This document shows positions 4,910 through 48,829 of a stretch of 64,000 nucleotides of DNA, piece after piece. The DNA is from Streptomyces antibioticus (GTDB lineage: Bacteria > Actinomycetota > Actinomycetes > Streptomycetales > Streptomycetaceae). The stretch is taken from contig NZ_KQ948434.1 of the NCBI RefSeq assembly GCF_001514065.1, positions 1-64,000 on the forward strand, written 5' to 3'. The first letter of the stretch is position 1; the number at the start of each line of letters is the position of its first letter. Position numbers and translations under genes: made by a program. The notes beneath the pieces are model-generated. The model ran no database searches and was not told the DNA's origin. It saw nothing but the letters and a program-made list of their open reading frames with translations.

Positions 4910-5362
4910 TCAGGCCTGGACGGGTTTGCCGTCGTGCAGGGCGATCGCGCGTTGCATCGCCTTGCGGGCGCGCGGGGTGTCGCGGGCGTCGTGGTAGGCG
5001 ACGGCGAGGCGGAACCAGCTGCGCCAGTCGTCGGGTTCGGCCTCGGTCTCGGCCTTGCGCTTGGCGAAGACCTCGTCGGCCGAGTCGCGGTCGATGCGGC
5101 CGCTGGGCAGGCGCCTCAACTCGTCGACGGGCAGGCCGCCTTCGGCGTCGAGTTCGGCGGCGAGCCGGTTGGCCTTGCGGACGAACTCGGTGTTCTTCCA
5201 CAGGAACCACAGACCGATGACCGGCAGGATCAGCACCGCCACGCCGAAGGTGACGGTGATGAGGGTGCCGGACTGGATGAGCATGACGCCGCGGCTGCCG
5301 ACCAGGACGAAGTAGAAGACCAGGACGGCGGCCGTTATGGCGTAGGACAGCTTGGCGCGCAT
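4910..5362 (-). CDS. Small membrane protein with TPR-like tail
   Basis: A 150-residue protein with two N-terminal transmembrane segments (about residues 5-27 and 34-55) and a helical cytoplasmic tail. The tail WRSWFRLAVAYHDARDTPRARKAMQRAI reads like one tetratricopeptide helix pair. It begins 7 bases after the dapB stop, so it is the last gene of the rpsO-pnp-M16-dapB series. The membrane topology is clear; the role is unknown. Confidence 0.8.
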   Translation of the reverse strand: MRAKLSYAITAAVLVFYFVLVGSRGVMLIQSGTLITVTFGVAVLILPVIGLWFLWKNTEFVRKANRLAAELDAEGGLPVDELRRLPSGRIDRDSADEVFAKRKAETEAEPDDWRSWFRLAVAYHDARDTPRARKAMQRAIALHDGKPVQA

Positions 5363-5369
5363 GGTGGTG

Positions 5370-7539
<2,170 letters not shown>

Positions 7540-40819: not shown

Positions 40820-42124
40820 CTAGGAGATTCGGACCGGGTTGACGACGTCCGCGATGAGGACCAGGACCGTGAAGCAGATGAAGATGCCCGCCACGACGTA
40901 GGCCACCGGCATCAGCTTCGCCACGTCGAACGGGCCCGGGTCGGGGCGGCGGAAGAGCTTGGCCAGGTTGCGGCGCAGCGACTCCCACAGGGCGCCCGCG
41001 ATGTGGCCGCCGTCGAGCGGCAGCAGCGGGAGCATGTTGAACAGGAACAGGGAGAGGTTGAAGCCCGCCAGGAGCATCACGAACATCGCCAGTTGCTGGG
41101 ACGCCGGGATGTCGAGCGTGGCGATCTCGCCGCCGACCCTGGCCGCGCCGACGACGCCCATCGGGGAGTCCGGTTCGCGGGGGCCGTCACCGAAGGCGGC
41201 GTCCCACAGGGCCGGGATCTTGGAGGGCAGGGCGGCGAGGGAGTCGACGGCGTCGCCGACGCGGTCCGTCATCCAGGTCACGGACTCGCCGAAGTCCTGT
41301 TTGACGACGCCGGTGGCGGCGCTGAAGCCGAGGAAGCCGGCCTTGACGTACTCGCCCTGGACGTAGGCCCCGCCGGCGTCCTTCTTCGCGACGAGGTTGG
41401 TGGCGATCTTGGCCGTGAGGGAGACCTGCTTGCCGTCGCGCTCGACGACGATCGGGACCGTCTTGCCGGCGCTGTCGCGGATGAGGTCGGAGAGGGTGTT
41501 CCAGTCGTCCGTCTGCACTCCGCCGAAGGAGACGATCTTGTCGCCCTTCTTCATGCCGGCCGCCGCGGCCGGGGAGGCCTTGTCGGTCTTCTTGCAGGTG
41601 TCGCGGTTCTCGCTCTGCGCGATGACGCAGGGCGAGACGGAGGCCACGTCGGTGGTCTGCTGCTGGATGCCGAAGCCCATCAGGACCGTCAGGAACAGTC
41701 CGATCGCCAGGATCAGGTTCATGAACGGGCCCGCGAACATCACGATCACGCGCTTCCACGGCTTGCGCGTGTAGAAGAGGCGGGACTCGTCACCGGGCTG
41801 GAGTTCCTCGAAGGCGGCCGAGCGGGCGTCCTCGATCATGCCGCGCCAGGGTGAGGTGGAGCGGGCCTCCAGGCGGCCGTCCGGGCCGGGCGGGAACATG
41901 CCGATCATGCGGATGTAGCCGCCGAAGGGGATGGCCTTGAACCCGTACTCCGTGTCGCCCTTCTTCCTCGACCAGATGGTCGGGCCGAAGCCGACCATGT
42001 ACTGGGGCACGCGGATGCCGAAGAGCTTGGCGGTGGAGAGGTGGCCGAGCTCGTGCCACGCGATCGAGACCAGGAGTCCGAACGCGAAGACCGCTATGCC
42101 GAGGATGAACATCAGGGTCGTCAT
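40820..42124 (-). CDS. Site-2 membrane zinc protease (RseP type)
   Basis: A 434-residue intramembrane metalloprotease. The start is ATG at 42122-42124 ([18 protein letters not shown]), overlapping the dxr stop (ATGA). The first membrane helix carries the zinc motif HELGH near residue 24. A PDZ domain with [19 protein letters not shown] lies in the middle. The third zinc ligand region [16 protein letters not shown] is near residue 365, within the C-terminal membrane helices. Such proteases cleave anti-sigma factors or other membrane proteins; the target is not identifiable here. Confidence 0.93.
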
Positions 42125-43377
42125 GCACGGGCCTCCGCCGTCTGTGCCGCCAGTTCCCGGGCCCGGGTGCGGGCCCAGGTCTCCGCTTCGAGGACGTCCG
42201 ACACCGTGAGCGGGGTTCCCGTGGCCGGCGTGCCGTGCTCCTCCACGACCCGCGTCACGGTCTCCATGATCCCGTTGAAGGGCAGCGCGCCGACGCGGAA
42301 CGCCTCCACGCACTCCTCGTTGGCGGCATTGAACACCGCCGGGGCCGTGCCCGCGAGCTCCCCCACGTGCCTCGCAAGGTTGACCGAAGGAAACGCGTCG
42401 TTGTCGAGGGGGAAGAACTCCCACGTCGACGCCTTGCTCCAGTCGAAGGCGGGCGCCGCGTCGGGGACGCGCTCGGGCCAGCCGAGGCCGATGGCGATCG
42501 GCCCGCGCATGTCGGGGGGCGTCGCCTGGGCGATTGTCGATCCGTCCGTGAACTCAACCATCGAGTGGACATACGACTGGGGATGCACGACCACCTCAAT
42601 GCGGTCGAAGGGAATGTCGTAGAGGAGGTGCGCCTCGATGACTTCCAGGCCCTTGTTGACGAGGGTCGCGGAGTTGATGGTGATGACCGGGCCCATGGCC
42701 CAGGTGGGGTGGGCCAGGGCGTCCTCGACGCTGACGTTCGCCAGTTCGTCCTTCGTACGGCCGCGGAACGGGCCGCCGGAGGCGGTGACGACCAGCTTGC
42801 GCACGTCGGCCCGCGTGCCGGACGCCAGGGCCTGGAACAGGGCCGCGTGCTCGGAGTCGACCGGGATGATCTGCCCGGGCTTGGCGAGGGCCTTGACCAG
42901 CGGGCCGCCGACGATGAGCGACTCCTTGTTGGCGAGCGCGAGGGTGCGGCCCGCCTCCAGGGCGGCGAGGGTCGGGGCGAGGCCGATCGAGCCGGTGATG
43001 CCGTTGAGGACGGTGTGGCAGTCGGAGGCGGCGACCTGACCGGCCGCCTCGGGACCGGCCAGGATCTCCGGGAGCGGCTCGCCGGTGCCGTACCGGGCCT
43101 CGAGTGACTCCCGCAGCGCCGGTACGACGTCCTCGCGGGCGACCGCGACGGTCCGCACCCCGAGCCGGTGGGCCTGCTCGGCGAGCAGGGAGACCCGGCC
43201 GCCGTTCGCGGAGAGCGCGGTGACCCGGAACCGGTCCGGGTTGCGCAGGACGAGGTCGATGGCCTGGGTGCCGATCGAGCCGGTGGAGCCGAGGATCACC
43301 ACGTCCTTGGGGCCGTCGCCCGCCACGGGGTCGTAGACGAGGTGGGGGTCGGCGAGAGGGGCTGGACTGTCACTCAT
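42121..43377 (-). CDS. dxr: 1-deoxy-D-xylulose-5-phosphate reductoisomerase
   Basis: Converts DXP to MEP with NADPH, the committed step of isoprenoid synthesis. The protein has 418 residues from the ATG at 43375-43377 ([16 protein letters not shown]). The nucleotide-binding loop [16 protein letters not shown] is near residue 25. The substrate/metal region with [17 protein letters not shown] and ASGGPF is present. It is translationally coupled to the site-2 protease and divergent from the ubiquitin-like operon. Confidence 0.96.
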
Positions 43378-43620: not shown

Positions 43621-43815
43621 ATGACGAATCGCGCAGAGGCGGAACGACTGTTGTCATCTCTCAGCGACAACGACCTTGTGGAGGTCGGCGAGGACGGCAA
43701 CATTTACGCACCGGGCAACTCTCCCGCCTCATTCATCAACAAGCCAATAGTTGGCATATCCGATCAAAAAGGCGAGTACTCACGGCCCATCACCGCACGT
43801 CCGGTCGCCGAGTGA
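43621..43815 (+). CDS. 64-residue protein heading the ubiquitin-like operon
   Basis: A small acidic protein (MTNRAEAERLLSSLSDNDLV ... ITARPVAE) with no signal peptide or membrane segment. An amphipathic helix (residues 3-20) precedes a Gly/Asp/Asn-rich, loop-like remainder. It does not show the beta-grasp pattern of ubiquitin-like proteins and does not end in Gly-Gly. Its DNA is visibly less GC-rich than its surroundings (ATA, CAA and AAA codons). The stop is one base from the E2-like ATG, so the two are coupled. It may be the conjugation target, a modifier or a partner; unknown. Confidence 0.7.
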   Translation: MTNRAEAERLLSSLSDNDLVEVGEDGNIYAPGNSPASFINKPIVGISDQKGEYSRPITARPVAE

Positions 43816-43816
43816 C

Positions 43817-44254
43817 ATGGCACGGAAACCGAGTGACATCCGGGTCACGAGAACACTTGTCATCGGTTCAGGAGGGCAGGGTGGGCGGCTGGCCGAGGAG
43901 CAGCGGATCCTCCAGCTGCATTTCCCCGGGTTCCATCTGACCGCCACTCCGCGGGAGGACTCCTGGGCCGTCGCCTGGGGCATGCTGAGCACCTTCACCG
44001 GCGAGTACTACGGCATCGGTATCAGCCTCCCCGAGGGGTATCCGCACAGCCTGCCGCAGGTATGGCCCTATGACTGGAAACCGGTCACGAACCCGCACAT
44101 GTACAGCGACGGGACACTGTGCGTGATGAAGCCGGGCCAGTGGTCCTCGTTCTTCTCCGTCGCCGCCGTGGTCGCCAAGGCGGCCATCTGGCTCAACAAA
44201 TATGAGATCTGGGTCGAGCGGCAGGAATGGCCGGGCCCTCAACAACCCCACTGA
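43817..44254 (+). CDS. E2-like ubiquitin-conjugating protein
   Basis: A 145-residue protein starting MARKPSDIRVTRTLVIGSGG. The second half follows the prokaryotic E2/UBC pattern: strands around YYGIGISLPEGYPHSLPQVW (the YPxxPP-type turn), then NPHMYSDGTLCVMKPGQW with His94 and the presumed catalytic Cys102. A C-terminal helix has the WLNKYEIW pattern. It is the central gene of the E2-E1-JAB operon. The fold and the active-site Cys are inferred from motif comparison, not from a search. Confidence 0.82.
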   Translation: MARKPSDIRVTRTLVIGSGGQGGRLAEEQRILQLHFPGFHLTATPREDSWAVAWGMLSTFTGEYYGIGISLPEGYPHSLPQVWPYDWKPVTNPHMYSDGTLCVMKPGQWSSFFSVAAVVAKAAIWLNKYEIWVERQEWPGPQQPH

Positions 44255-44287
44255 CAGCGGGCGCCAGGCAGCCGAGGAGGCACCTCC

Positions 44288-45154
44288 ATGACCGCTGACG
44301 CGGTTCTCGACACATCTCGTATCGACTATCTGCTGGACACCGCTGAGCTCGCTAGGGCCAAGGTCGTCCTGGTCGGGCTCGGTAGCGGTGGCGCCGCCGT
44401 CATGCAACGCTTGGCGATGTGCGGCATACGCGACTGGACGCTGTTCGATCCGGACGTGCTCCAGCCGGAGAACCTGGTCAAGCACCCGGCGCGACGCACC
44501 GACCTGGGGCGGCTGAAGACCGACATCGCCGCCGAGTGGCTAGCCGACCGCAATCCGGCGAGCCACGTGACCGCCTTCCCGCACGACATCCGAAAGTCCA
44601 AGGACATCGAGCAGGCGATCGCGGAGGCCACCCTGGTGGTGTGCGCCGTCGACAACGCGCTGGCGCGGAATTTCCTCAACGAACTGTGCGTGCGCAGCCG
44701 CACCCCCTGCGTCTTCGGCATGGTCTTCCGCACCGGCATGGGCGGCGAGGTCTACGCATACCTCCCTGGGGAAACCGGTTGCCATGACTGCAAGTTGGCG
44801 TTCTGCATGGACCGGGGGATCGACCTGGACGACTGGTTGGAGCTCACGAGCGAGGAACAACAGCGGATCTACGGACTCGGTGAGCCTGATTTCGCGGCCT
44901 CCGGGCTGGCCGCGGACATCGCCATCGTCGCGTCCTACCATGCGCATTACGTCGTTTCGCTGCTCGGTGGTCGGCATTCCCGCTATTTGCTCCAGCCGTC
45001 GTTCAACTGGCTGACAATCGGAATCCGTCGAACCGAAGGCCTGTTCGAGAACTCGTATGACAACACCCGCGTGCTGCTGCGTCCCCTCACCGGTTGCCAT
45101 CTCCGCTGTGGAACGGGCACGGAGTCCGCCGAGCCCACCTCAGCGGGCGGGTGA
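44288..45154 (+). CDS. E1/ThiF-like adenylyltransferase
   Basis: A 288-residue protein with a strong GAGGAGG site before the ATG. The Rossmann ATP-binding loop VVLVGLGSGGAAV has its glycines at residues 30-35. Asp54 (LFDPDVL), Asn62, Arg70 and Lys77 fit the E1/MoeB/ThiF nucleotide site, and VCAVDN at 118-123 is the usual acidic strand end. CHDC (165-168) and CHLRC (270-274) probably bind zinc or supply the thioester Cys. It should adenylate the C-terminus of a small modifier protein. The stop overlaps the JAMM gene start (GTGA). Confidence 0.88.
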   Translation: MTADAVLDTSRIDYLLDTAELARAKVVLVGLGSGGAAVMQRLAMCGIRDWTLFDPDVLQPENLVKHPARRTDLGRLKTDIAAEWLADRNPASHVTAFPHDIRKSKDIEQAIAEATLVVCAVDNALARNFLNELCVRSRTPCVFGMVFRTGMGGEVYAYLPGETGCHDCKLAFCMDRGIDLDDWLELTSEEQQRIYGLGEPDFAASGLAADIAIVASYHAHYVVSLLGGRHSRYLLQPSFNWLTIGIRRTEGLFENSYDNTRVLLRPLTGCHLRCGTGTESAEPTSAGG

Positions 45155-46152
45155 ACGTCATGAGCCTGTTCGGGACGCGGCCGAGGAAGTGCCCCTCAAC
45201 CCTGCGTGTCTTCGTGCCGACGCGCGTGACGCACCGGTTCACCGAAGAAATCCTGCGTCATCCCCAGGTCGAAGTCGGGGGCAAGTACGTCGGGTTCATC
45301 CGCGGGACGAAGCGCTTCAGGGGCCTGACGGATCGGCACAAGGCCATGGGTGAGCTGGTGATGGTGGTCCTCGACTACATCGACGACGGCCCCCTCTCAG
45401 AACGCACGGCGGTGACTCACCGCGGTGACTCCCGGTTCCAGACGCAGGAGTTTCGCAAGTTGGAGGCCCGCTTTCCAGAACTGGAGCACCTCGGCAGCTG
45501 GCACAGCCACCATCCCAACCGGCTGCGCAGCTTGAGTGATGGGGACATCGACGGTTACCGGGACACCGTCAACGCAGACGGCCACAACCACGACTTCTTC
45601 TTCGCGAGCCTGGGCACGGACAGCGGCGGTTTCGAGACGGCCCGCCACTTCCTCTTCGTCCGAGGTGACAACAACTACTACGAGCTGGGCAAGGAGAATC
45701 TGGTCGTGGACGATGGGGCGGGCGTCGGCCCCGCCCCGCCCACCGCCGCCGTGCCGCAGCTCGCGGTGCCGGGCTGGACAGACTCGGTGTCCGGCCAGGA
45801 ACAGCTGGCCCACGACAGAGCTGTGGTCGGCCAGTACAAGGGGCTGCGGCATGTCGTCGGAGCAGATCGGATCGCCGTGACCGGGCAGTTGACCTGGGAT
45901 CACAGCATCCGCGTTCATTTCAATCTGCTCTATCCGTCCTCGGTGGGCGGAACGGACGGGCTGCTCAAGGTCACCGTAGAAGGCCGGCTAGCGGTGGAGG
46001 TCAGCCTGAGCGGTGATCAGGCCGGTGATCTGGAATTCGCACTCAAGGCGGCGGACCAGATCGCGGGATGCGCGGTGGCGGTCAACAAGCAGGCGCTGCG
46101 CCACGACAAGGCACGGCCCCGGCATGCCAGTCCCGGAGGCCGTCAGCCGTGA
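45151..46152 (+). CDS. JAMM/MPN metalloprotease (JAB) of the ubiquitin-like operon
   Basis: A 333-residue protein starting with GTG overlapping the E1 stop; ATG at 45160 (MSLFGTRPRK) is an alternative. Residues 20-175 are a JAB domain: Glu near residue 41 (QVEVGGKYVGF) and zinc residues in LGSWHSHHPNRLRSLSDGD, with His118, His120, Ser129 and Asp132. The spacing after HSH is one residue longer than the usual JAMM motif. A Pro-rich linker (about 200-220) leads to a second alpha/beta domain of about 110 residues. It probably cleaves conjugates or processes the modifier. The stop overlaps the next gene. Confidence 0.87.
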   Translation: MNVMSLFGTRPRKCPSTLRVFVPTRVTHRFTEEILRHPQVEVGGKYVGFIRGTKRFRGLTDRHKAMGELVMVVLDYIDDGPLSERTAVTHRGDSRFQTQEFRKLEARFPELEHLGSWHSHHPNRLRSLSDGDIDGYRDTVNADGHNHDFFFASLGTDSGGFETARHFLFVRGDNNYYELGKENLVVDDGAGVGPAPPTAAVPQLAVPGWTDSVSGQEQLAHDRAVVGQYKGLRHVVGADRIAVTGQLTWDHSIRVHFNLLYPSSVGGTDGLLKVTVEGRLAVEVSLSGDQAGDLEFALKAADQIAGCAVAVNKQALRHDKARPRHASPGGRQP

Positions 46153-46865
46153 ACACGGCCACGAACGCGCACACTCTGTCGCTCACACGTCGTGAGCCGC
46201 CCGCCTTCCACGGCGAGACGGTGGGCTCAGACCTGGACAAGCTCGAGCATGTCCGCTCGGCTTGGCTGATCTCGCGCAGCATCTCCGCTCGGCCGTTCAC
46301 CGAGAAGCTACTCGCCCAGGAGTCTGGCTTCGCGGCGCTGACCACGCACGAACTCAGCGCGGCTGCCCACACGTTGACGTACAAGTTCGGCCACGTGCAG
46401 CGTTGGCGGCTGCTGTGGGCGGTCTCCCTCGACGGGCCCAGCCAGTTCGGCGACGCACGCACTGTCCGGCACGGTGTCAGCGAGGAGACGGCCCGTGAAC
46501 TGGCCGACAGCATCGGCGTCGAGGCCAAGCTCGACGTCAAGTTCCTCGCCGCCCAGGCCAGCAGACAGTGGTCGCGGCTGACACGCTCGACCATCTCCGT
46601 CAACGCCGAGTCCGAATTCACCCGTACTCTGACCTACGAGGTGCCGGCTGAGGGCATGGACATCGCCCTGTGGCAGCTGGAGTCGCAGCTGATCAGACGG
46701 CTGGAGCTACGGCCCGGCGCCGTGCTGCCACCCGATCCGGTGCCGCGCTGGGTCGGTCTCGCCGTCGCAGCGCGGTCACGGTCCCGAGTGATCACCGTGC
46801 CCACGAACGTAGTTCGCGCACGGACCAGGAAAGCCCCAGGTGTCAGCGGTGCCGCCGAGACATGA
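46149..46865 (+). CDS. Unknown fourth protein of the ubiquitin-like operon
   Basis: A 238-residue protein starting with GTG that overlaps the JAMM stop (GTGA). The N-terminal third is helical. The middle (WRLLWAVSLDGPSQFG) and the segment around residues 150-185 (RSTISVNAESEFTRTLTYEV) show alternating polar and hydrophobic strands. No signal peptide or catalytic motif. The alternating pattern loosely recalls the strands of aerolysin-type beta proteins, but this is weak. It is coupled to the JAMM gene, so it belongs to the system and could be a substrate, adaptor or effector. Confidence 0.75.
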   Translation: MNTATNAHTLSLTRREPPAFHGETVGSDLDKLEHVRSAWLISRSISARPFTEKLLAQESGFAALTTHELSAAAHTLTYKFGHVQRWRLLWAVSLDGPSQFGDARTVRHGVSEETARELADSIGVEAKLDVKFLAAQASRQWSRLTRSTISVNAESEFTRTLTYEVPAEGMDIALWQLESQLIRRLELRPGAVLPPDPVPRWVGLAVAARSRSRVITVPTNVVRARTRKAPGVSGAAET

Positions 46866-46885: not shown

Positions 46886-48829
46886 TCAGCGGATCGGGCG
46901 GTGGACGTTGGTCTTCTCGCTCGGGCCCGGGGTCGCGTCGGCGATCCACGGGCCCTCGCCCGACGCGTCGACGATGCCGTCCTCCAGCCACTCGTAGGTG
47001 CCGGACATGACGCCCTTGACGACCTTGCGGTCCAGGTCGTCCGTGTTGGTCCACAGGCGGCCGAAGAGCTCCTCGATCCGGATGCGGGACTGGTGGCAGA
47101 AGGTGTCCGCCAGTTGGTAGGCCTCGCGGCCGTGGGCCTCGGTGGTGCGCAGGAGTTCGGCGCGGACACAGACCGCGCTCATCGCGAAGAGCTCCGCTCC
47201 GATGTCGACGATCCGGCCGAGGAAGCCCTGCTTGGTCTCCATGCGGCCCTGCCAGCGGGACATGGCATAGAAGGTGGAGCGGGCCAGTTTGCGGGCCGTG
47301 CGCTCGACGTAGCGGAGGTGGACGGAGAGGTCTACCTCGTGTTTGAACTCGTTGTAGGAGTAAGGGAGTTGGCCCTGACCCGCGACCAGCTTCGGGAGCC
47401 ACTTGGCGTAGAACACGCCCGCGTTGGCGCCCGCCTTCGCCTTGTCCGTCAGGGACTTGTCCGGGTCGATCAGGTCGCCCGCGACCGAGAGGTGGGCGTC
47501 GACCGCCTCGCGGGCGATCAGCAGGTGCATGATCTCGGTCGAGCCCTCGAAGATGCGGTTGATGCGGAGGTCTCGGAGGACTTGCTCCGCCGGGACTGCT
47601 CGTTCGCCGCGGGCCGCCAGGGACGCGGCCGTCTCGAAGCCGCGGCCGCCGCGGATCTGGACCAGTTCGTCGGCCATCAGCCACGCCTGCTCGGAGGCGA
47701 AGAGCTTGGCCAGGGCTCCCTCGATGCGGATGTCGTTGCGGTCCTCGTCGGCCATCTGGCTGGCGAGGTCCGTCACCGCCTCCAGGGCGAAGGTGGTGGC
47801 CGCGATGAAGCTGATCTTCGAGCCGACCGCCTCGTGCTGGGCGATGGGCTTGCCCCACTGCTCGCGGGCCGCCGACCACTCGCGGGCGATCTTCAGGCAC
47901 CACTTGCCGGCCGCCACGCAGGAGGCGGGGAGGGAGAGCCGGCCGGTGTTGAGGGTCGTCAAAGCGATCTTCAGGCCCGTGCCCTCCGGGCCGATGCGGT
48001 TCGCGGCCGGGACCCTGACCTGGTGGAAGCGGGTCACGCCGTTCTCGATGCCGCGCAGGCCCATGAAGGCGTTGCGGTTCTCGACAGTGATGCCGGGCGA
48101 GTTGGTCTCCACCACGAACGCGGTGATGCCGCCCCGGTGGCCCTCGGACTTCGGCACCCGGGCCATGACGACGAGGAGGTCGGCGACCACACCGTTGGTG
48201 GTCCACAGCTTCACTCCGTCGAGGACGTAGTCGTCGCCGTCGGGGACCGCGGTGGTGGCGAGGCGGGCCGGGTCGGAGCCGACGTCGGGCTCGGTGAGGA
48301 GGAAGGCGCTGATGTCGGTGCGGGCGCACCGGGGCAGGAACATCTCCTTCTGCTCGTCCGTGCCGAACAGCTTCAGCGGCTGCGGTACGCCGATCGACTG
48401 ATGGGCGGAGAGCAGCACGCCGATCGCGGGGCTGGCGGAGCCCGCCAGTGCGAGCGCCTTGTTGTAGTACACCTGGGTGAGGCCGAGGCCGCCGTACTTG
48501 GTGTCGATCTTCATGCCGAGGGCGCCGAGTTCCTTGAGGCCGTTGATGACCTCGTCGGGGATCCGGGCCTCGCGCTCGATGAGGGCGCCGTCGACCTTCG
48601 TCTCGCAGAAGTCGCGGAGCTTGGCGAGGAACTCCTCGCCGCGCTGGGCGGCCTCGGAGGAGGGCATGGGGTGCGGGTGGACCAGGTCGAGCCGGAAGCG
48701 CCCGAGGAACAGTTCCTTGGCGAAGCTGGGCTTGCGCCACTCCTGTTCCCGGGCCGCCTCGGCGACCTCGCGGGCCTCGCGTTCGGAGACGGAGGGTTTG
48801 CTGGTGGATGGGGCGGACAAGAGGCTCAC
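46886..48829 (-). CDS. Acyl-CoA dehydrogenase (long form)
   Basis: A 647-residue FAD enzyme of fatty acid beta-oxidation, longer than the usual 380-400 residues because of an extra C-terminal helical domain, as in very-long-chain types. The FAD/substrate motif FLLTEPDVGSDPA is near residue 185, and RIFEGSTEIMHLLIAREA near residue 430 holds the catalytic Glu. The start is GTG at 48827-48829 with a GAG directly adjacent, an unusually close ribosome site. The gene is convergent with the ubiquitin-like operon and divergent from lacI. Confidence 0.93.
   Translation of the reverse strand: MSLLSAPSTSKPSVSEREAREVAEAAREQEWRKPSFAKELFLGRFRLDLVHPHPMPSSEAAQRGEEFLAKLRDFCETKVDGALIEREARIPDEVINGLKELGALGMKIDTKYGGLGLTQVYYNKALALAGSASPAIGVLLSAHQSIGVPQPLKLFGTDEQKEMFLPRCARTDISAFLLTEPDVGSDPARLATTAVPDGDDYVLDGVKLWTTNGVVADLLVVMARVPKSEGHRGGITAFVVETNSPGITVENRNAFMGLRGIENGVTRFHQVRVPAANRIGPEGTGLKIALTTLNTGRLSLPASCVAAGKWCLKIAREWSAAREQWGKPIAQHEAVGSKISFIAATTFALEAVTDLASQMADEDRNDIRIEGALAKLFASEQAWLMADELVQIRGGRGFETAASLAARGERAVPAEQVLRDLRINRIFEGSTEIMHLLIAREAVDAHLSVAGDLIDPDKSLTDKAKAGANAGVFYAKWLPKLVAGQGQLPYSYNEFKHEVDLSVHLRYVERTARKLARSTFYAMSRWQGRMETKQGFLGRIVDIGAELFAMSAVCVRAELLRTTEAHGREAYQLADTFCHQSRIRIEELFGRLWTNTDDLDRKVVKGVMSGTYEWLEDGIVDASGEGPWIADATPGPSEKTNVHRPIR

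Follow-up and report, generated by a model that had tools for sequence, protein, structure and literature searches.

Among the described systems that come closest to the locus reported here, the Bil and Bub operons have beta-grasp modifiers; Pup of Actinobacteria, which is about 64 residues long and largely disordered, is joined by PafA via its C-terminal glutamate, without E1, E2 or JAMM; and MccB, an E1-like enzyme with neither an E2 nor a JAMM partner, activates a short peptide to make an antibiotic. One account names Bil and Bub among immune operons (PMC13373217). Section 14 of Iyer, Burroughs and Aravind 2006 (PMC1779556) sets out the 6A-MBL type operons (row 6a, with a metallo-beta-lactamase, MBL; see also NCBIfam NF058523/NF058524) and row 6d, whose small protein is predicted to adopt the beta-grasp fold and has a conserved glycine at its C-terminus. 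Cap2, from type II cyclic-oligonucleotide-based antiphage signalling systems (CBASS), provides a precedent for a substrate that is not a beta-grasp protein, according to sections of PMC10097602 and PMC12355090. Here we describe a five-gene operon in a stretch of 64,000 nucleotides of Streptomyces antibioticus DNA, referred to as the window (positions 1 to 64,000 of contig NZ_KQ948434.1 in assembly GCF_001514065.1, a genome of 10.1 Mb in 29 contigs). This operon is probably a defence-linked protein-conjugation cassette, with the product of its first gene, a mini-protein without a beta-grasp fold, as the modifier. Its features are the following:

43621..43815, plus strand: gene 1, small protein of 64 amino acids, candidate modifier precursor
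43771..43779, plus strand: codons of the invariant Gly51-Glu52-Tyr53, from the alignment of small proteins
43780-43812, plus strand: codons of the unconserved 11-residue C-terminal tail of the gene 1 product
43817..44254, plus strand: gene 2, E2 (UBC-like), by PADLOC E2 match and conservation of Cys102 and His94
44120-44122, plus strand: codon of the predicted catalytic Cys102 of the E2
44288..45154, plus strand: gene 3, E1/ThiF-type adenylyltransferase, by Pfam ThiF and MccB matches and conserved residues
45151..46152, plus strand: gene 4, JAMM metalloprotease with an extra C-terminal region, by E41, H118, H120, S129 and D132
46149..46865, plus strand: gene 5, novel protein of 238 amino acids, in the position of an effector or accessory gene

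The coordinates bear out the sequence-only reading of this DNA, which had described five close-packed plus-strand genes at 43621-46865 with spacings of 1 and 33 nucleotides followed by two GTGA overlaps (for gene 4, ATG 45160 is a possible alternative start to GTG 45151). That reading listed gene 1 only as a 64-residue protein; the length is correct, but an invariant C-terminal motif, a ragged tail behind it and the recurrence of the gene upstream of E2 in other loci had been missed. In the alignment of small proteins, Gly26, Lys41 and Gly51-Glu52-Tyr53 (GEY) are invariant in all 25 sequences, the window copy included, and the conserved positions are scattered along the length of the protein rather than confined to one end. 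The tails behind GEY, of 0-11 residues, are mostly unalike, and seven of the 25 proteins have none. With its invariant GEY and unconserved tail the protein thus looks like a processed precursor, and a small gene upstream of E2 that encodes such a C-terminus is the obvious candidate for the modifier. Among the 676 open reading frames (ORFs) of 30-150 amino acids in the window, only gene 1 has GEY within its last 14 residues.

Relatives of the operon were collected from a Mesorhizobium plasmid (locus L032, found by tblastn of plasmids) and from one scan of genome contigs with the JAMM alignment, which gave 25 further loci (L046-L070). In 24 of these 26 loci a profile search places the small gene just upstream of E2, a count that leans on a first profile seeded by five sequences including the window copy. 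The contig of L054 starts inside the ThiF gene and the small gene is not among its sequence; in L061 it is a shortened copy with no obvious start. In leave-out tests, window gene 1 is matched at 1.9e-19 by a profile from all other members, at 4.8e-7 by a profile without the Actinobacterial E5-type members and at 2.9e-9 by one from L049, L050 and L068 alone. The ratio of non-synonymous to synonymous substitution rates (dN/dS) of gene 1 is 0.057 against L046 and 0.067 against L047 (0.13-0.31 for the other four genes), values that are only rough because dS exceeds 1.4 for gene 1. Profile matches, purifying selection and shared position together rule out that gene 1 is a chance ORF.

Library scans of Pfam, NCBIfam and PADLOC gave no credible family match for gene 1 and its relatives. 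An AlphaFold model of the small protein (24 rows; mean predicted local distance difference test score, pLDDT, 62.5) has a helix at residues 4-13, a minimal hairpin (2+2 residues) within 21-29 and a disordered tail at pLDDT of about 50, which, at this low confidence, is not a beta-grasp fold. We know of no beta-grasp modifier that is as short. The small-protein profile also matches PDB entries (best 1.8e-6), mostly designed beta-trefoil repeats along a short stretch, which we read as a shared hairpin motif and not as kinship. The earlier statement that no recognisable ubiquitin is encoded here therefore holds, within the tests made, for the fold; for the function, where the 64-residue protein is the candidate, it probably does not.

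The same reading had recognised an E2, an E1 and a JAMM protease, rightly so given the Pfam and PADLOC matches and the active-site residues that are intact in the alignments of relatives. Gene 2, with a PADLOC E2 match at 9e-11 and a Pfam UQ_con match at 2.4e-5 (24.4 bits, below the cut-off of 27), has Cys102, His94, W138-P139-G140 and His145 invariant in 26 of 26 rows and is predicted to encode an E2 domain with its catalytic cysteine. Gene 3 matches Pfam ThiF above cut-off (3.9e-34), PADLOC E1-E2 (6.3e-31) and PADLOC BilD (3e-8). When compared with the MoeB residues named in part of PMC12355090, G30, G32, G35, D54, N62, K/R65, K77 and D122 are kept wherever a row has a letter (24-26 of 27 rows), as are Cys165, 168 and 270, and we assign the protein as an E1/ThiF adenylation domain with an intact site. 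Gene 4 matches PADLOC JAB at 1.1e-4 and Pfam Prok-JAB at 0.14, below cut-off; with E41, H118, H120, S129 and D132 invariant in all 31 rows, four of them phage proteins, it is a predicted JAMM protease with its catalytic residues.

The best solved-structure match of gene 3 is MccB (1.6e-13), and one could think of the small protein as the precursor peptide of a natural product that is activated by an MccB-like enzyme. This is very improbable, because conserved positions occur all along the small protein, the catalytic residues of E2 and JAMM are kept throughout, and no exporter, immunity or tailoring gene is recognisable in the window operon (gene 5 being without a family). CysO/Mec+ cysteine synthesis is a sulfur-carrier pathway with a JAMM-released product, and a similar pathway, in which the small protein would receive sulfur from ThiF before the JAMM frees the product, could be served by a ThiF-type E1 having zinc-binding-type cysteine pairs, a JAMM and a short protein with a glycine near its end. 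What makes a sulfur carrier hard to credit is the E2 with its cysteine and histidine invariant in every row, together with the defence genes that adjoin several relatives (see below) and the window operon itself, in which no rhodanese, cysteine synthase or cofactor gene was recognised, again with gene 5 lacking a family.

The E1-JAMM core of the cassette spans many phyla. Across the 26 loci, profile searches found ThiF and JAMM in all 26, E2 in 25, the small protein in 24, an MBL protein in 21, two E2 domains in 18 and gene 5 in three (L046-L048); the Mesorhizobium plasmid encodes the small protein, E2, a second E2-like protein, ThiF, JAMM, MBL and a patatin protein. The cassette is rare, and among the scans made its gene-5 type is known in the window, in L046-L048 and in one further genome, G920 (locus L088), where the operon of the window type is complete and the small protein also carries GEY. 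JAMM and ThiF trees split alike into two clades: clade A consists of the window, L046-L050 and L068, with one E2 each and no MBL found except in L049, and clade B has the MBL protein and, in 18 of its loci, the second E2-like domain. The mixture of phyla in clade B points to transfer.

Several relatives lie beside defence genes. Of the 116 ORFs listed in the flanks of L049-L070, 94 were scanned for such genes and one further ORF was added, with L032 and L046-L048 outside the scan. Four of the 94 match Prok-E2_A, ThiF and Prok-JAB (in L062, L063, L064 and L069), and the L062 fusion used as a query matches those in L063, L064 and L069 as well as one in L057, at a contig end, at 1.5e-11 or better. 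All five stand downstream of the cassette together with a preceding ORF:

L062 7713-12351: related ORF and 6A-like E2-E1-JAB fusion downstream of the cassette
L063 7772-11162: related ORF and 6A-like E2-E1-JAB fusion downstream of the cassette
L064 7749-11377: related ORF and 6A-like E2-E1-JAB fusion downstream of the cassette
L069 7863-11200: related ORF and 6A-like E2-E1-JAB fusion downstream of the cassette
L057 9316-12567: related ORF and 6A-like E2-E1-JAB fusion downstream of the cassette

We call these fusions 6A-like from their Prok-E2_A, ThiF and Prok-JAB matches and their mutual similarity, not by the NCBIfam 6A model. The fusion in L062 additionally bears a patatin domain, and the ORF before the fusion, which is related in all five loci, is weakly MBL-like, by the MBL profile made here, in L062 (1.2e-4), L057 and L069. 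Elsewhere, L055 and L070 each match MkoA (Mokosh) at 1e-244 or better and L056 does so partially (1.2e-40); a type IIG restriction system is found in L065, restriction-modification in L060 and PDC-M37B in L059, and L049 encodes a protein that combines an Mrr domain with ATPase and TPR parts. One clade A locus carries a CBASS pair:

L068 2426-4368: CD-NTase and CapV-like patatin phospholipase (CBASS pair), directly upstream of the cassette

The CD-NTase matches a solved CD-NTase at 3.9e-9 and the phospholipase its four closest solved chains at 3e-40 to 4e-39; judged by gene content, L068 is a CBASS with the cassette in place of Cap2/Cap3. This locus is also where a different role of the small protein has to be considered, i.e. 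that of a regulator or adaptor, with E1 and E2 conjugating another protein by its own C-terminus, in the way that Cap2 of type II CBASS conjugates the CD-NTase (a precedent described in PMC10097602). The CD-NTase beside the cassette would fit such a role, and so would L062, where E2, E1 and JAMM are present and no small gene is recognisable in the three forward frames read. We regard it as unlikely, since the L068 CD-NTase ends in ...FPRDPK, whereas Cap2 substrates are reported to end in Gly or Ala, so that the small protein may supply the conjugated tail there. Moreover, a search with the L068 CD-NTase as the one query (E up to 0.001) revealed no other CD-NTase in the stretches covered of the other 25 loci, and a substrate of such enzymes would be expected to have an invariant C-terminal motif followed by a ragged tail.

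Besides the lack of a recognisable small gene in L062, a number of observations weigh against a defence-linked cassette with gene 1 as a non-beta-grasp modifier. When L046 is compared with L047, gene 1 (dN/dS of about 0.24) is less constrained than E2 (0.17) and ThiF (0.14). A profile from the MBL-type small proteins alone misses window gene 1 (E 1.8), and the link between the two runs via the small proteins of L049, L050 and L068. The low confidence of the structure model leaves room for a small protein that may fold on binding. No crossover-loop cysteine is conserved in the E1, the sole candidate being Cys134, which is kept in 25 of the 26 rows with a letter there. Finally, the immediate neighbours of the window operon are housekeeping genes, and in L053 and L061 the one ORF tested in each gave no PADLOC match at 1e-15.

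Starting from the observed gene order, intact active sites, conserved motif and genes, and the defence genes beside several relatives, we infer conjugation, tail trimming, a target and an antiviral role for the cassette as follows. The JAMM would first cut off the unconserved tail, with Tyr53 or the invariant Gly51 as the last residue left on the small protein. Known JAMM proteases cut directly after glycine, and known E1s and JAMMs would favour Gly51. The Gly or Ala ends of Cap2 substrates, as given in part of PMC10097602, are in line with this site, whereas the seven small-protein copies that end at the position of Tyr53 favour Tyr53 as the mature C-terminus. The ThiF-type E1 would then adenylate the exposed C-terminus, as MccB activates a short peptide, and the E2 would take the small protein as a thioester on Cys102 and transfer it to a target, probably a viral protein or a partner encoded in this operon or in one next to it. 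The JAMM would also remove the small protein and reset the system. The gene 5 product here, and MBL or patatin proteins elsewhere, would act as effector or regulated partner.

A broader view, which we put forward tentatively and as a serious possibility, is that of a widespread yet overlooked class of mini-modifiers, i.e. proteins of about 50 residues without a beta-grasp fold and with a GEY end, that are matured by their own JAMM and serve as a plug-in for several defence systems (operons with MBL and 6A-like fusion, CBASS, and Actinobacterial gene-5 operons), with some phages having a JAMM that could strip them off. A literature search, in which subscription papers were thinly covered, brought up no description of the GEY protein or the cassette, and an earlier published account may exist. 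Six IMG/VR contigs encode a stand-alone JAMM of the cassette subfamily, with catalytic residues intact in the four that were aligned:

L042 5004-5513: viral JAMM, beside terminase or head-tail genes
L043 about 4944-5447: viral JAMM
L044 4998-5489: viral JAMM, beside terminase or head-tail genes
L045 4890-5429: viral JAMM
L125: viral JAMM
L126: viral JAMM

In a tree of four viral JAMMs, three cluster within clade B and the fourth stands at its base. Viral scans with E1 alone, with two E1s or with the small protein as query found nothing, nor did tblastn of phage records with E1 or of 50,697 phage records with one phage JAMM. As a lead only, the phage JAMMs could be counter-defence deconjugases that strip the modifier off.

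The second E2-like domain of clade B begins with a Phd/YefM-like stretch in 18 of 18 copies (E 1.7e-18 or better), named as such by Pfam in L032:

L032 5356-5886: Phd/YefM antitoxin-like stretch fused to an E2-like domain, with copies in 17 other clade B loci

This domain keeps its cysteine in 13 of the 18 copies, with losses in L032, L056, L061, L065 and L067. In the Mesorhizobium ThiF gene there is a frame break at about L032 5880-6040, possibly a sequencing error or decay. Plasmid matches from Clavibacter, Spirosoma and Chroococcidiopsis were judged, by their features or ORFs, to be something other than this cassette. In 396 genomes of the phylum the JAMM profile found the window's own copy and three weaker matches; the best of these three, in genome G528 (L036), belongs to a distantly related set of E1, JAMM and E2 genes in this different order.

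Gene 5 has clear relatives behind the cassette in L046, L047, L048 and G920/L088. It is present in one of 295 genomes of the genus, that of the window, and its profile found six of 394 genomes of the class, i.e. the own copy, the clear one in G920 and four short weak matches (E 8e-4 to 7e-3). No match was obtained in Pfam, NCBIfam, PADLOC, PHROGs or PDB, in agreement with its initial description as a novel protein, and the structure model is unusable (mean pLDDT 40.1). The idea of a pore-forming protein, which came from its sequence pattern only, was dropped in view of the missing database match and the unusable model. Within L048 5696-6422 gene 5 has a frame break, for which sequencing error or decay is possible. 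In the window, the operon is flanked by two genes on the opposite strand:

42121..43377, minus strand: dxr, flanking gene
46886..48829, minus strand: acyl-CoA dehydrogenase gene, flanking gene

As initially noted, the operon is less GC-rich than its neighbours (0.654, compared with 0.707 for the window, 0.717 for dxr and 0.693 for the acyl-CoA dehydrogenase gene), and GC content at third codon positions is 0.82-0.83 in genes 2-5 and 0.93-0.95 in both flanking genes. For gene 1 (43621-43815) it is 0.66, well under that of genes 2-5. The gap between dxr and the dehydrogenase gene, which holds the operon in all three cases, measures 3508 nucleotides in the window, 3551 in L046 and 3554 in L047. 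Among 29 loci of relatives, the 17 that allow placement of both flanks have a gap of 76-1446 nucleotides between these genes, and it is 100-131 nucleotides in the four loci that best match a query from the dxr end (L092-L095). Transfer had been suggested from the lower GC content and the site, and these short gaps support arrival of the operon by insertion or transfer.

Compared with the 6A-MBL type, the cassette likewise has E2, E1 and JAB functions and, in clade B, an MBL protein; the Mesorhizobium MBL (1.2e-8) and JAMM (1.1e-11) match the 6A models weakly, both under cut-off, and the five loci with a 6A-like fusion carry it just downstream. In contrast to that type, E2, E1 and JAMM are separate genes to which a small GEY protein is added, the window E1 reaches 56.2 bits against an NCBIfam fusion cut-off of 320, and none of the five window genes encodes the MBL found in most other loci. 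Conversely, no GEY small gene was found within about 1.3 kb of L071, which is over the 6A family cut-off, or in L072, which is below it. With row 6d and the Bil and Bub operons the cassette shares a small candidate modifier gene alongside E2, E1 and JAB genes, and its E1 the match to BilD; unlike in rows 6d and 6e and Bil, family scans and a low-confidence model reveal no beta-grasp modifier in the window operon. The gene 1 product resembles Pup in length and in being largely disordered by its model, but the cassette has E1, E2 and JAMM; and gene 3 is E1-like as MccB is, but has E2 and JAMM partners. As in type II CBASS, E1-E2 and JAB enzymes go along with a substrate, here a candidate one, that is not a beta-grasp protein, and in L068 the cassette adjoins genes for a CD-NTase and a CapV-like phospholipase; different from type II CBASS are the separate E1 and E2 proteins, the separate GEY protein and the absence of a CD-NTase among the five window genes. 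The cassette is thus a concrete and testable candidate for a system with a genetically encoded mini-modifier. If this is true, we would learn, at least for one branch, what is conjugated by bacterial E1-E2-JAB operons that lack a ubiquitin, and a shared module would link two defence families, the 6A-MBL-like operons and CBASS.

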